A DNA stretch of 64,000 nt from Propionibacterium australiense (GTDB taxonomy: Bacteria > Actinomycetota > Actinomycetes > Propionibacteriales > Propionibacteriaceae), in NCBI RefSeq assembly GCF_003666605.1, contig NZ_RCIV01000002.1, positions 186,001-250,000 of the forward strand. The letters run 5' to 3'. This document shows, piece by piece, positions 6,027 through 17,795 of this stretch. A program made the translations under genes and the position numbers. The notes under the pieces were generated by a model, which worked only from the letters and a program-made list of their open reading frames with translations, did no database searches and was not told the origin of the DNA. Positions within the stretch are counted from its first letter, which is position 1, and each line of letters begins with the position of its first letter.

Positions 6027-6734
6027 TCAGCCCGACAGGGCCCCCAGGTAGCGGCGCACGACGGCCTCGACGAGCACTTCGTGCACCCCGATCGGTTCGG
6101 CGGCCGGCAGGCCGAGGGCGGCGATGCGCTGCTGGTAGAGGCCGGGGAACAGGGCATGGGTCGACACGGCGATGTCGTTGGCACCGGCCTCGCGCAGGCG
6201 GGCGACCGCCTCGACGAGACTGGGGTGCCTCGCGTAGAAGAAACCCACCTCGACCGGGCGGCCGAGCAGTCGCGACAGCCGTCCGGCCGTGGCCCGAGTC
6301 TCCTCGTTCGCCTCGTCGTGGTTCGAGCCGGCCGAGGCCAGGACGACGCCGTCACCGAGCGGGCCGGCCTCGGCGAGCCGGTCGCGCAGGGCCGGATCGA
6401 GGTCTGCACCGACGTGCTCGGTCGCCCTGGCCAGGCCATGGGTGCGCCGGATGGCTGCCGGGATGTCGTGGGTGACGTGGTACCCGGCGCTCAGGAAGGC
6501 GGGGACGACGACCGCACGCCCCACGGCGGGCAGGGTTCGTTCAAGGGTCTCCTCGTGCACGTCGACCCAGCCGATGCCGACACGGACGCCGGGCAGCCGG
6601 GCGGCGACGCGTTGACGCAGCTGCTCGGCGCGGTCCAGGCCGGCCGGGTTGCGGGTCCCGTGCAGGGCGATGACGAGTGCGGTGCCGGCTGTCGCATCGC
6701 TGGTGGTACTGGGCGTCGTGGTTCGAGCTGGCAT
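6027..6734 (-). CDS. Sirohydrochlorin chelatase (CbiX/SirB-type)
   Basis: Expected to insert Fe2+ (siroheme) or Co2+ (cobalamin) into sirohydrochlorin. The 235-residue product is a two-domain, long-form chelatase. The N-terminal half has 'ALHGTRNPAG' with the family's catalytic His; a second domain begins near 'LASAGSNHDEANEET', and 'VSTHALFPGLYQQRI' is also conserved. The ATG at 6734 has GAGG 6-9 nt upstream. The gene is solitary, but a leader peptide ORF (6852-6935) precedes it on the same strand with about 117 nt between, which favours a siroheme/sulfur-assimilation role over cobalamin synthesis. Confidence 0.85.
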   Translation of the reverse strand: MPARTTTPSTTSDATAGTALVIALHGTRNPAGLDRAEQLRQRVAARLPGVRVGIGWVDVHEETLERTLPAVGRAVVVPAFLSAGYHVTHDIPAAIRRTHGLARATEHVGADLDPALRDRLAEAGPLGDGVVLASAGSNHDEANEETRATAGRLSRLLGRPVEVGFFYARHPSLVEAVARLREAGANDIAVSTHALFPGLYQQRIAALGLPAAEPIGVHEVLVEAVVRRYLGALSG

Positions 6735-6851
6735 GTGTCCTCACATGGATGACGACTGAACGTGGTGTTCCAGGGGTGTGAAGGGATGACAGGAGCCCTG
6801 GCCGGATCCTCGGTCAGGGGCCCTGGCGACGGGCCGGAGGGAGTTTCTCGT

Positions 6852-6935
6852 TCAGCGGCGACACAGTGCCGAGGACACGGCGGCGAGGTCGATGTGGGGC
6901 CTGCCCACGAGCATCCAGACCTCTCGCCAGTTCAT
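6852..6935 (-). CDS. 27-codon cysteine/sulfur-type leader peptide upstream of the chelatase gene
   Basis: A tiny ORF encoding 'GRPHIDLAAVSSALCRR' at its C-terminus. This matches the pattern '(R)RHxDLxRVxSALCR' of the short actinobacterial 'putative leader peptides' found before sulfur-metabolism genes, ending in the Cys-Arg pair. The ATG is preceded by TAGGAT (6942-6947) at 6 nt, so transcription probably starts at the A of the ATG. The role inferred is ribosome-mediated attenuation sensing Cys-tRNA, controlling the chelatase gene downstream. The pattern match is from memory, without a database search. Confidence 0.65.
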   Translation of the reverse strand: MNWREVWMLVGRPHIDLAAVSSALCRR

Positions 6936-6966
6936 GGGTTCATCCTAGCCAGTCGTGTCCGGCCGA

Positions 6967-6980
6967 CCGACCATGGTCGG
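6967..6980. promoter_or_regulatory. Palindromic operator-like site upstream of the leader peptide promoter
   Basis: Perfect 14-bp palindrome CCGACCATGGTCGG, lying about 20 bp upstream of the TAGGAT box of the leader peptide, where a -35 or operator would be. The cognate regulator is unknown. Confidence 0.35.
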
Positions 6981-7147
6981 CCGGGTCTGAGAGCCTGCCC
7001 ACATACACACAAGTCATCTGAGGACTAGAGGGCATTTTGGGGATGTCGTCGCTCAAGCTGATGTAGAAACCTCATCAACTACCAGAAGGTCTTGTGCATT
7101 CGCGTCTGGAAGACTTAGACTCACGCCAAGTCCTCAGAGGAGTTGGC

Positions 7148-7840
7148 ATGGCTCAGTCCCGTCTCGACATCGCGGTCGCCGAACTGCTGGGCCGCGTGGT
7201 GGACGGCAGCTATGCCGTGGGCTCGGCTCTTCCGGGGGAGGAGGCGCTCGCGTCCGCGCTGTCCGTTTCCCGTCTCACCGTGCGCGAGGCGACTCGGGTC
7301 CTGACGACGAAGGGTGTTCTCTCGGCTCGCCAGGGTTCGGGGACGTACGTCAATGAACCCGCCGACTGGCACGATCTCGCCAGCCTGGTGGCGCTGGCCC
7401 GTCACGGCAGCTCGGAACGCGAAATCGGCCTGGCCCTGTTGGAGGTGCGGCGCATGATCGAGGTCGGCAGCGCCGGACTCGCCGCCGCCCGCATCACCCC
7501 AGAGCGCCTCGCCGACATGGCGGACACCATCGTCGAGCTCCGGCGGGCGGACGCCGCGGACGAGGTCGATGCCGCGGCCGCCGCGGATCTGGCCTTCCAC
7601 GACCACATCATCGAGGCCACCGACAATCTCTTCATCCACGCCATCTTCGCCCCCCTGCGCGAGGAACTCATGGCCGCCCGGCAGGTGACGTCCGCCCATC
7701 ACGAGGTGCGGGCCCACGCCGTGGCCCAGCACGAACGCATCCTCCTGGCGCTGCGCCTCGGTTCCCCCGATGCCGCCAAGGCGGCCATGCGCGCCCACAT
7801 GGATCAGACCACCAACGATCTGCTCCAGTACACGACCTGA
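7148..7840 (+). CDS. GntR family regulator, FadR/FCD subfamily
   Basis: Probable local regulator of the four-carbon acid-sugar operon that follows. The N-terminal winged helix carries the GntR hallmark 'LPGEEALASALSVSRLTVRE'; the C-terminal FCD domain has 'LAFHDHIIEATDN' and a later 'VAQHERILLALR', which supply the metal/ligand-binding Asp and His residues. ATG 7148 is chosen because AGAGGAG lies about 6 nt upstream; the reading frame stays open for 54 nt further upstream. The product has 230 residues, normal for the family. The next gene starts about 100 nt downstream. Confidence 0.88.
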   Translation: MAQSRLDIAVAELLGRVVDGSYAVGSALPGEEALASALSVSRLTVREATRVLTTKGVLSARQGSGTYVNEPADWHDLASLVALARHGSSEREIGLALLEVRRMIEVGSAGLAAARITPERLADMADTIVELRRADAADEVDAAAAADLAFHDHIIEATDNLFIHAIFAPLREELMAARQVTSAHHEVRAHAVAQHERILLALRLGSPDAAKAAMRAHMDQTTNDLLQYTT

Positions 7841-7938
7841 CCAGCCACCATCACCCGGCCGCCCGGTACCAGCCGGTGGCCCCGGTCCATGACCCACAAC
7901 TCACCCAGAACGGAAAACAGTCACAAAGGAGTGCACTC

Positions 7939-9357
7939 ATGGAGACATTGGAAGGGCTCACCGCCGGCATCCCAGCCGGCCCCAGCGTGAACCCGGCAGA
8001 TGTATCTGCTGGCCTGACACGGGCGCTCGTCGTCCTCGACGACGATCCCACCGGCACCCAGTCCGTTGCCGATCTGCCTGTCGTCACCGGCTGGCAGGTC
8101 GAGGACCTCGAATGGGCGTTGTCCACCGGGGCGAGCGCCGTGTACGTCATGACCAACTCGCGCAGTCTCGACCCCGACATGGCCAAGCAGGTCAACACCG
8201 AGGTGGTCACCAACGCGATGACCGCCGCAGAACGAGTCGGCAGGCGGATCATCTTCGTGTCCCGTTCCGACTCGACGTTCCGGGGCCATTTCCCGCTGGA
8301 GCCCGACACCATCGCCGACGTGCTCGAACGTGCGGGCACGACCGTGGACGGCGTTGTCCTGTCCCCGGCCTTCGCCGATGCCGGTCGTATCACGGTGCAC
8401 GGCGTCCACTACGCCGGCAGTGCGAAGGCCGGCTTCGTGCCCGTCGGACAGACCGAGTTCGCCGCCGACAAGACCTTCGGTTACCAGGCCTCCTACCTGC
8501 CCGAGTGGGTGGAGGAGAAGACATCGGGGGCCGTGCGGGCGCAGGACGTCGTCGTCATCGACCTGCTGACCCTGCGCACCGACGAGGACGCCGTCGTCGA
8601 TCGCCTGAGGTCCGTACGGAACCGAACGCCGATCGCCGTCGACTGCGTCGAGGAGAATGACCTGTTGCTGCTGGCCCGCGCCCTCCAGCGGGCCGAGGCC
8701 GCCGGCGCCAATTTCGTCTACCGCGTTGGCCCGCCCTTTGTCCGGGGACGCATCGGGCAGACGCCACACGCCCCCCTCACCTCGGAACAGTCCCGCCCCG
8801 CCGACTTCGCCCCCGCCTCCGACGCCGTCGGAGGGCTCATCGTGGTGGGCTCGCACGTGGGTCTGACCGGACGCCAGGTCGATGCGCTGCGCGAGGCCAC
8901 CGCCACGCCGGAAATCGTCATCGACGTCCCCACCGTGCTCGACGCCGACCGGCGTGACCCGCATGTCAGGCAGGTCGCCGAGCAGGCCGCCGCCGCGCTG
9001 CGTCAGGGAAACGTCGTCGTCCGCCGCGGCGGTGCTTTCGTGGCCGGCCGTGACGCGGGGGAGTCCCTGGAGTTCGCACGGCGCGTCTCCGCGGCTGTCG
9101 TCGAGATCGTTCAGCGCATCGTCGCCATCCGCTGTCCCCGTTTCGTCATCGCCAAGGGCGGCATCACGTCCTCCGATGTCGCCTCCCGCGGTCTGGGCAT
9201 ACGCCGGGCGCTCGTCCGCGGCCCCATGCTGCCCGGCATCGTCTCCCTGTGGGAACCGCAGGACGGCCCTGCCGCAGGCATCCCCTACATCGTGTTCGCG
9301 GGCAACGTCGGGGATGAGGGCTCGCTCACGGACGTCGTCGGCACCCTGAACGCCTGA
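7939..9357 (+). CDS. Four-carbon acid sugar kinase family protein (OtnK/DtnK, DUF1537)
   Basis: ATP-dependent kinase expected to phosphorylate a C4 sugar acid such as D-threonate, D-erythronate or 3-oxo-tetronate. The 472-residue product has the N-terminal family motif 'VVLDDDPTGTQ' (about residue 31), 'SRSDSTFRGHFP' in the substrate domain and the C-terminal nucleotide-binding stretch 'VIAKGGITSSDVASRGLG'. AAAGGAG 8 nt before the ATG fixes the start. It lies in a regulator-kinase-dehydrogenase-permease array; the aldolase and isomerase (OtnC/OtnI) that usually complete the pathway are not in this cluster. Confidence 0.88.
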   Translation: METLEGLTAGIPAGPSVNPADVSAGLTRALVVLDDDPTGTQSVADLPVVTGWQVEDLEWALSTGASAVYVMTNSRSLDPDMAKQVNTEVVTNAMTAAERVGRRIIFVSRSDSTFRGHFPLEPDTIADVLERAGTTVDGVVLSPAFADAGRITVHGVHYAGSAKAGFVPVGQTEFAADKTFGYQASYLPEWVEEKTSGAVRAQDVVVIDLLTLRTDEDAVVDRLRSVRNRTPIAVDCVEENDLLLLARALQRAEAAGANFVYRVGPPFVRGRIGQTPHAPLTSEQSRPADFAPASDAVGGLIVVGSHVGLTGRQVDALREATATPEIVIDVPTVLDADRRDPHVRQVAEQAAAALRQGNVVVRRGGAFVAGRDAGESLEFARRVSAAVVEIVQRIVAIRCPRFVIAKGGITSSDVASRGLGIRRALVRGPMLPGIVSLWEPQDGPAAGIPYIVFAGNVGDEGSLTDVVGTLNA

Positions 9358-9454
9358 CCACCACGACCGGCCGGTGCCACGTCGCATCCGCCTTGTCCGT
9401 CCATCCGCACCACAACCGGGATGTGCATCCCGCAACCGATCAAAGGAGATCATC

Positions 9455-10343
9455 ATGACCACCAACGTCGCCGTGCTCGGACTCGGAGCCATGGGCCTGG
9501 CCATGGCCACGAACCTCGCTCAGCACTTCACCGTCTGCGGCTTCGACATAGCCGCTGACCGTCTGGCTCTGGCCGAACGCAGTGGTGTTCGGCCCGCGGC
9601 ATCAGCCCTTGAGGCGGTCGCTGATGCCGACGTCGTACTGGTCGCCGTCCGCAATCAGGCGCAGCTCGAGGAACTGCTCTTCGGAACGAGCGGCATCGCC
9701 GCCGCCATGCGGACCGGCGCCGCGATCCTGCTCACGTCCACGGTCGGCAACGCAGGCGTGGAGGCGGTGGCAGGCCGCCTCCACGACATGGGTCTGCTGC
9801 TCGTGGACGCTCCCGTCTCCGGTGGACCGGTACGGGCCGGCAGCGGTGACCTGCTCGTCGTCGTCGGCGCCGATGACCGGGCCTGGGCGGCGACCGAGGA
9901 CGTGCTGGAGGCCATCTCGTCCACGTTGGTGCGCGTGGGTGACGAACCCGGTTACGGCCAGTCCATGAAAACCGTCAACCAGCTCCTGTGCGGTGTGCAC
10001 ATCGCGGCTGCCGGCGAGGCCCTGGCGCTGGCTCGCGGCCTCGGCCTCGACGCCGAGGCCGCCCTCAAGGCGCTCATGGCGGGTGCGGCGGAATCCTTCA
10101 TGCTCGGCGACCGCGGGCCGCGGATGCTGCAGGCATACGACGAGCAGGGGGGCGGAGGTGCGTTCCCGGCTGGACATCTTCGTCAAGGACATGGGTATCG
10201 TCACCGCCGCGGCCAAGAGCGTGGGACTGTCCACGCCGGTGGCTGCCGCCGCCGAGCAGCTGTATCTGCAGGGCGCGCGGCGTGGCCTGGGCGCCAAGGA
10301 CGACTCCACCGTGATCACCGTGATCGCGCCCGAGCGGGACTGA
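9455..10343 (+). pseudogene. NAD-dependent beta-hydroxyacid dehydrogenase (LtnD/YgbJ-like), frameshifted
   Basis: Should oxidise the C4 sugar acid before or together with the kinase. Rossmann motif 'GLGAMGLAMA', substrate loop 'DAPVSGGPVRAG' and catalytic Lys in 'SMKTVNQLL' are all intact in the first frame. At a run of six G (10147-10152) the frame is lost; the remaining 60 residues ('EVRSRLDIFVKDMGIV' onward) continue in another frame to the TGA at 10343. Adding one G or removing two would restore a protein of about 296 residues. It could be a true pseudogene, a phase-variable tract or a sequencing error. AAAGGAG precedes the ATG by about 6 nt. Confidence 0.8.
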
Positions 10344-10352
10344 GGGCGGATC

Positions 10353-11723
10353 ATGTCCACCACCGTCCTGCTTCTGCTGGCCGTAGCGGCCATCGCGGTT
10401 CTGCTCGCCCTGGTCATCAGGGCGAAGATGAGCGCCTTCGTGGCGATGATCCTGGTGTCCATGGTCCTCGCCCTCGCCGCGCGCATCCCGATCGGCGACG
10501 TCGTCCAGACGATGATCGATGGCATGGGGAAGACCCTCGGATCGGTCGCCATCGTCGTCGGTCTGGGGGCCATGCTGGGCCGGGTCATCGAGGCGGCAGG
10601 CGGCGCCGAGGTCCTTGCCGAACGCTTCACGCGCCTGCTCGGGCGTGAGCGCGTGGTTGCCGCCGTCGTCGCCGCTGCCTTCATCCTCGGTATCCCGATC
10701 TTCTTCGACGTCGGCTTCATCATCCTGGCCCCGATCGTCTTCGGCTTCGCCTCCATCGCGAAGATCAACCCGCTCAAGATCGGTCTTCCCGTCGCGGCGA
10801 CGATGCTCGCCCTGCACGTCGTCATCCCGCCCCACCCGGGGCCGGTCGCCTCTGCGGCGACCCTGGGCGTCGATGTCGGCCTGCTGACAATGCTCTCCCT
10901 GCCCGTCTGCGCCCTGGTGGCGGTTGTGGTCTACTTCGCCTCCAAGCGTCTGCACCTGGAAAGAGTTGCCGTCGGGCAGACGCCGTTCGGTGGTGGCGCC
11001 TCCGAGAGCACTGGGTCCGCGGATGTGTCCAGTGGCCAGGTCACTCGTGCGCGCACCGGTCCCGGAACGGTCGTCTTCCTCATTCTCGAACCGATCGCGC
11101 AGATCATGTTCGGCACGGTGGGGCAGATGCTGGTCGACGAGTCGTCCATGGCCTACACGGTGCTCGGGTTCGTCGGGTCCTCGACGACGGCACTGCTGAC
11201 CGCCGTCATGCTCGCCTACTTCATCGTCGGTCACCAGCAGCGCTGGAGCCTGGAACGGCGTGGCACGATTCTCGACTCCGCGCTACCCGATGTGGCCACC
11301 ATCGTCTTCGTCACGGGCGCCGGCGGAGTGTTCGCCGGTGTCCTCGTGGCCAGCGGCATCGGCGATGCGCTGGCACAGGCGCTGGTGGCCACGCACATGC
11401 CGATCCTCCTGACCGCCTTCGTCATCTCGGCTGCTCTGCGGGCCTCGCAGGGATCGGCCACCGTGGCGATCCTGACCACGGCGGGGCTGCTGGCCGATGC
11501 GATCGCTGGCGGCGGCTACTCGGCCCTGCAGGTGGTGTTGATCCAGATGGCGATCGGCTTCGGCTCGCTGGGGTTCTCCCACATCAACGACTCCGGATTC
11601 TGGATCGTCACCAAGTACCTGGGGTTGTCCGTCAAGGACGGCCTCAAGAAGTGGACGGTGCTGTCAACCATCGCCGGGCTCACCGGCTTCCTACTCACCG
11701 GCGCCGTGTGGCTCGTCGCGTGA
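10353..11723 (+). CDS. GntP family permease (gluconate/C4 sugar-acid:H+ symporter)
   Basis: Membrane transporter, 456 residues with about 12 hydrophobic segments. It contains the GntP signatures 'VIVVGLGAMLGRVIEAAGGA', 'IFFDVGFIIL', 'HVVIPPHPGPVA' and a C-terminal 'HINDSGFWIV'. It begins 9 nt after the dehydrogenase stop with GAGGGCGGA as ribosome site, so it belongs to the same operon and probably imports the substrate of the kinase/dehydrogenase. Confidence 0.9.
   Translation: MSTTVLLLLAVAAIAVLLALVIRAKMSAFVAMILVSMVLALAARIPIGDVVQTMIDGMGKTLGSVAIVVGLGAMLGRVIEAAGGAEVLAERFTRLLGRERVVAAVVAAAFILGIPIFFDVGFIILAPIVFGFASIAKINPLKIGLPVAATMLALHVVIPPHPGPVASAATLGVDVGLLTMLSLPVCALVAVVVYFASKRLHLERVAVGQTPFGGGASESTGSADVSSGQVTRARTGPGTVVFLILEPIAQIMFGTVGQMLVDESSMAYTVLGFVGSSTTALLTAVMLAYFIVGHQQRWSLERRGTILDSALPDVATIVFVTGAGGVFAGVLVASGIGDALAQALVATHMPILLTAFVISAALRASQGSATVAILTTAGLLADAIAGGGYSALQVVLIQMAIGFGSLGFSHINDSGFWIVTKYLGLSVKDGLKKWTVLSTIAGLTGFLLTGAVWLVA

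Positions 11724-13531: not shown

Positions 13532-17795
<4,264 letters not shown>

Follow-up and report, generated by a model that had tools for sequence, protein, structure and literature searches.

The window, that is, the whole 64,000-nt stretch of Propionibacterium australiense DNA that was analysed, contains a gene for a sirohydrochlorin chelatase, which is preceded by a short ORF with a cysteine codon near its end. The elements of the locus are the following:

6027–6734, minus strand: sirohydrochlorin chelatase (CbiX), 235 aa, two CbiX domains (PF01903, E 8e-25), with relatives in sulfate-reduction operons
6735–6742, minus strand: GAGGACAC, Shine-Dalgarno region of the chelatase, partner of 6871–6878 in the predicted free RNA (inverted repeat and fold)
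6801–6813, minus strand: CCGAGGATCCGGC, which could pair with the same leader segment instead, a candidate for a competing helix (85% complementarity, inverted repeat I3)
6852–6935, minus strand: cysteine leader ORF of 27 codons, MNWREVWMLVGRPHIDLAAVSSALCRR and a stop codon (sequence and family match)
6861–6863, minus strand: UGU, putative sensing Cys codon (codon 25), nine codons past Asp16 and followed by C (sequence and family-wide invariance)
6871–6878, minus strand: GTGTCCTC, within leader codons 20–22, complementary to the chelatase Shine-Dalgarno sequence (inverted repeat I8 and fold)
6942–6947, minus strand: TAGGAT, putative -10 box 6 nt upstream of the leader ATG, with a predicted leaderless transcript from that ATG (sequence, P. 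acidifaciens and family enrichment)
6967–6980, no strand assigned: perfect 14-bp palindrome CCGACCATGGTCGG, 32–45 nt before the ATG, not conserved and probably outside the system

The 27-codon ORF that the original prediction placed before the chelatase is confirmed in the sequence, with 117 nt between its stop codon and the chelatase ATG (6734), and its match to the NCBIfam family NF042934 ("putative leader peptide", cis_reg_atten; 26.8 bits, E 2.8e-6) is far from chance. The score falls short of the curated cut-off of 27 by 0.2 bits, and the residue at D+3 is Ala, where 97% of the family have Arg; both points count against the explanation favoured here. The Arg at D-4, the Asp-Leu pair, and the Cys nine codons after Asp are all present (R12, D16, L17, and C25), and the gene context of NF042934 is also found, with the ORF 117 nt upstream of a chelatase whose orthologues lie in sulfate-reduction operons. 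The runner-up family, NF042936 (Ms4527A Cys-rich leader), scores 16.5, far below its cut-off of 45. The Rfam search gave nothing over the gathering threshold and two weak matches below it. The proposed membership in the actinobacterial cysteine leader family is supported by the NF042934 match and the motif residues, and the ORF is, as judged from its sequence, a cysteine-sensing leader peptide of an already known class. It has a single Cys codon, and a run of cysteine codons is absent.

The TAGGAT box is found six bases before the ATG, as had been stated, with GAACCC as the spacer. The chelatase leader mRNA would start at or next to the AUG from this -10 box. In the upstream alignment with P. 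acidifaciens, TAGAGT, 6 nt, and a GTG occupy the equivalent place, and of 136 leaders in the family, 62 have a TANNNT element 5–8 nt before a start, against an expectation of 11.6, with almost all of these elements at 6–7 nt. Both the conservation of the -10/start spacing and its enrichment speak for the leaderless start predicted earlier. Not every leader follows this pattern; the cysHDN leaders, by eye, carry a Shine-Dalgarno sequence.

The perfect 14-bp palindrome in the -35 region is real, but no support was obtained for its having a role. The window holds 14 such palindromes against 9.7 expected, so CCGACCATGGTCGG is not remarkable. A transcription-factor operator at this site, acting as the main control of the chelatase, would agree with the overlap with the -35 region; with palindromes of this length at chance level, and with this one absent from P. 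acidifaciens and not common to the promoters of the remaining leaders in this genome, such an operator is very unlikely. The palindrome was left out of the model because it occurs at chance level and is not conserved.

The chelatase leader is not the only one in the genome. In a six-frame profile search for the leader family over the whole 3.0-Mb genome, the four best matches each precede a sulfur gene: the chelatase (genome-wide E 8.5e-5), SiR, TauE, and cysK. A fifth leader was found by pattern; the motif DNA pattern has four matches only in this genome, all of them true leaders, and its reversed control has none. All five leaders are located upstream of sulfur-assimilation genes, and the four that accompany the chelatase leader are:

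before SiR (sulfite reductase): MIRGHILVQRRHVDLCAVASALCR (six-frame search)
before a TauE/SafE-type permease: MLRLVVRRHIDLVRVAAMACRAPRL (six-frame search)
before cysK: MVHLVARRHIDMMRVVSVAMCRTCSR (six-frame search)
before cysH-cysD-cysN: ...RQHIDLMLVTTATC (found by pattern)

Close orthologues of the chelatase were found in a search of 147 genomes of the taxonomic family; a search of genome contigs with the chelatase returned P. acidifaciens and one weak relative only. In the relatives, the chelatase is the last gene of an operon with the order SiR-cysH-cysD-cysN-(TauE)-chelatase, and in at least four of the genomes examined (G054, G142, G123, and G040) a single leader stands at the operon head, ahead of SiR. 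In the genome of the window this operon is broken into four fragments, each of which has a leader of its own. The description of the chelatase as solitary is correct locally, but the operons of the relatives identify it as a former member of a sulfate-reduction operon. In P. acidifaciens, the closest relative and a member of the same genus, the chelatase is likewise solitary, and its upstream DNA aligns with the leader, keeping the HVD...A.V.SA..CR pattern, the -10 spacing, and the UGU. Conservation of the peptide in this relative is partial, as it holds for the coding pattern and the codon but not for the frame, which is broken in the draft assembly by one extra base (L016 4831–4960, GGGG for GGG). 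This base may represent real decay to a pseudogene or an assembly or sequencing error. The broken frame, together with a family score just below the cut-off, would suit a chance reading frame without function, but this is hardly credible for an ORF with a genome-wide E of 8.5e-5 that lies exactly before a sulfur gene and follows the -10 spacing rule as well as the UGU and Asp-to-Cys spacing rules described below.

Genome G295, a distant one from the same class, has an independent leader, MTGALLTARLHVDLQRVSSAVC..., directly upstream of another CbiX gene, so the leader-chelatase pairing is not unique to the genus. The contig concerned (G295:C251, L166/L233) has two divergent leaders ~150 nt apart, one before the CbiX chelatase and the other before SiR. 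The assignment of a leader to the siroheme chelatase is well founded. Cysteine-linked, ribosome-mediated control of the chelatase is well supported at the sequence level because the family match, the five-leader sulfur regulon, the ancestral operon with its leader, and the leader-CbiX pair in the distant relative all point to it. The regulon, the ancestral operon, and the leader family likewise support the idea that siroheme supply is tied to cysteine status; siroheme iron insertion, a cofactor step needed by sulfite reductase, would be placed under the same leaders as the enzymes. Other genes downstream of the sampled leaders, as judged by eye from N-termini, are cystine-symporter-like, rhodanese-like, sulfonate-binding-like, and cysteine-dioxygenase-like. 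The last of these are cupin proteins preceded by leaders of the same family (L052 and L058); cysteine dioxygenase is catabolic, and its induction by cysteine shortage would be unexpected.

In 135 of 136 leaders, the Cys that lies nine codons beyond the conserved Asp is encoded by UGU. That this Cys is always TGT was noticed while reading codons, after which 60 further loci were fetched as a held-out set; TGT is present at the conserved Cys in 70/71 cases of the discovery set and 43/43 of the held-out set. In the merged set, the Asp+9 codon is TGT in 130/130, and differences at the wobble base occur in the codons for Arg, His, Val, Asp, Leu, and Arg. The Asp-to-Cys distance is nine codons in 130/137, and UGU is followed by C or T in 133/137. 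Two cases without TGT were found, one real (L061) and one, a regex match (L143), that is not a leader. TGT is a rare codon, accounting for 13–14% of the Cys codons in the flanking ORFs, and TGC prevails among the remaining Cys codons of these motifs (45:10 and 23:1), so the UGU is not a regional codon bias. PMC9094748 attributes a lower G/C skew of such ORFs to their cysteine codons.

Annotation-free DNA patterns, identical but for the last base (UGU or UGC), were applied to 198 genomes of the class. The UGU pattern has 213 matches in 103 genomes, 49 genera, and 26 families (summed and counted by hand), and the UGC pattern has 4, two of which (L231 and L232) look like leaders; reversed-pattern controls over the 198 genomes gave zero matches. 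The UGU rule spans many families, and drift is therefore an unlikely cause, though related sequences are not independent. No mention of the rule was found in the searchable literature, and it appears to be undescribed; it is the part of the system that may surprise specialists, and a one-base change (UGU to UGC) could probe it.

The conservation at the peptide level, the fixed spacing, and the invariant wobble codon suggest a "hungry UGU" sensor assisted by the nascent chain, which would itself take part in sensing. The invariant UGU may account for single-Cys leaders working at all. The entire actinobacterial family may rely on a single dedicated hungry codon that does not vary, UGU, decoded by tRNA-Cys (GCA) with a G-U wobble and kept at a fixed distance from the conserved nascent-chain motif. 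Such leaders would combine a hungry-codon attenuator with an arrest peptide, and the synonymous choice would itself be essential; we put this forward tentatively, as somewhat more doubtful than probable. In a pure arrest peptide, the nascent chain would respond to a metabolite, be it cysteine, sulfide, or some other sulfur compound, and uncharged tRNA-Cys would not be the signal. This would explain why one Cys is enough and why R, D, L, and R are conserved with free synonymous codons at nine codons from Cys (130/137), but the invariance of the codon, and not merely of the residue, argues for the decoding of UGU, and the poly-Cys relatives have the same motif; metabolite sensing is thus considered improbable.

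With NF042934 the chelatase leader has in common the short ORF, the RxHxDLxxVxSALC(R) motif, a location shortly before a sulfur-assimilation gene, the nine-codon Asp-to-Cys distance, and UGU, and it differs in the score under the cut-off, in the Ala replacing the usual Arg at D+3, and in the predicted control of a solitary chelatase. Cysteine-responsive translation attenuation by related M. smegmatis leaders is cited in PMC13236596 and PMC9094748, which also refer to the work of Canestrari et al. (2020) on leaderless poly-cysteine short ORFs in mycobacteria. The latter share the predicted leaderless start, the core motif, and the occurrence of several leaders per genome as one cysteine regulon; compared by sequence, the leader studied here has one Cys codon and not a run, and it scores 16.5 against the 45 of NF042936. 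Leaders of cys genes were predicted for Propionibacterium acnes in PMC1262725, where the cys operon leader also stands before sulfate-assimilation genes and is without a terminator, but it is described as having runs of Cys codons and precedes an operon, whereas here the chelatase is alone. The uORFC-8-2 motif, which precedes cysS in Rhodobacterales (PMC8632094), is likewise a Cys-codon leader with ribosome-mediated attenuation, but it has tandem Cys codons with UGC dominant, an intrinsic terminator, and belongs to another phylum; it is an unrelated leader.

The explanation as a whole, in which a cysteine-sensing leader stalls at UGU and controls the chelatase, is considered probable. The ribosome would translate the leader from an mRNA starting at or near its AUG and, when Cys-tRNA is short, would stall when UGU codon 25 is in the A site, with probable help from the conserved RxHxDL... 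nascent chain. Stalled there, it would cover the preceding leader segment, and the downstream mRNA would stay open for translation (or transcription) of the chelatase. When cysteine is plentiful, the ribosome would finish and leave, and the free RNA would fold, shutting the chelatase start region. In this way the chelatase would respond together with sulfite reductase, cysHDN, TauE, and cysK, each with its own leader. The sensor half of this system is well supported, and the candidate outputs are masking of the Shine-Dalgarno sequence or Rho.

In the fold model, the pairing probability of the leader segment with the chelatase Shine-Dalgarno region is 0.80 in the free RNA and 0.01 with a ribosome on UGU25, although in the latter state the Shine-Dalgarno sequence pairs elsewhere and is still 84% paired (0.84 total). 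Synonymous shuffles matched the observed helix in 61/2000 cases by duplex energy and in 12/200 by pairing probability, and a shorter shuffle test gave p 0.20, so that the helix is weakly significant overall. By eye, it is not kept in P. acidifaciens. An anti-Shine-Dalgarno in the conserved Val-Ala/Ser-Ser codons was rejected as a family-wide mechanism, as synonymous shuffles of 102 leaders revealed no excess (KS p 0.91), and the count of downstream RNA partners for UGUY (9 seen, 4.3 expected) is not convincing. A classical transcription attenuator was rejected as well, since the search for an intrinsic terminator after the leader found none. A perfect 6-bp hairpin, CATGTG-AGGA-CACATG, is present at window positions 6732–6747 (minus strand), with the core of the chelatase Shine-Dalgarno sequence in the loop and the start codon in the stem.

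The same sensor could also act through Rho-dependent transcription attenuation: once translation of the leader has ended normally, Rho would be recruited by the following 117 nt, which are C-rich and untranslated, and transcription would stop before the chelatase, while a stalled ribosome would block the candidate Rho step. The stretch TCATCCCTTCACACCCCTGGAACACCACG ahead of the chelatase is C-rich and G-poor, and, with an intrinsic terminator not found at the locus and leader-Shine-Dalgarno pairing not a family feature, this agrees with the proposal of Rho for cys leaders without terminators (PMC1262725, 2005). The M. smegmatis poly-Cys leaders, however, are reported in later papers to act by translation attenuation (PMC13236596, PMC9094748), and a Rho-dependent output is regarded as possible but rather unlikely.

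Further features were observed elsewhere in the window. A 17-nt inverted repeat (88% complementary; 7010–7026, CAAGTCATCTGAGGACT, and 7129–7145, AGTCCTCAGAGGAGTTG, 102 nt apart) flanks the likely promoter of a divergent GntR/FCD regulator (7148–7840, plus strand) and is a possible operator pair. By eye, the regulator is followed by a DUF1537-type kinase, a 3-hydroxyisobutyrate-dehydrogenase-like oxidoreductase, and a GntP-type permease, and the region 7148–11723 is probably a catabolic cluster for a four-carbon sugar acid. A phospho-beta-glucosidase-like ORF (15454–16017, plus strand) is, also by eye, seemingly shortened by a transposase-like ORF on the opposite strand (15980–16744, minus strand).
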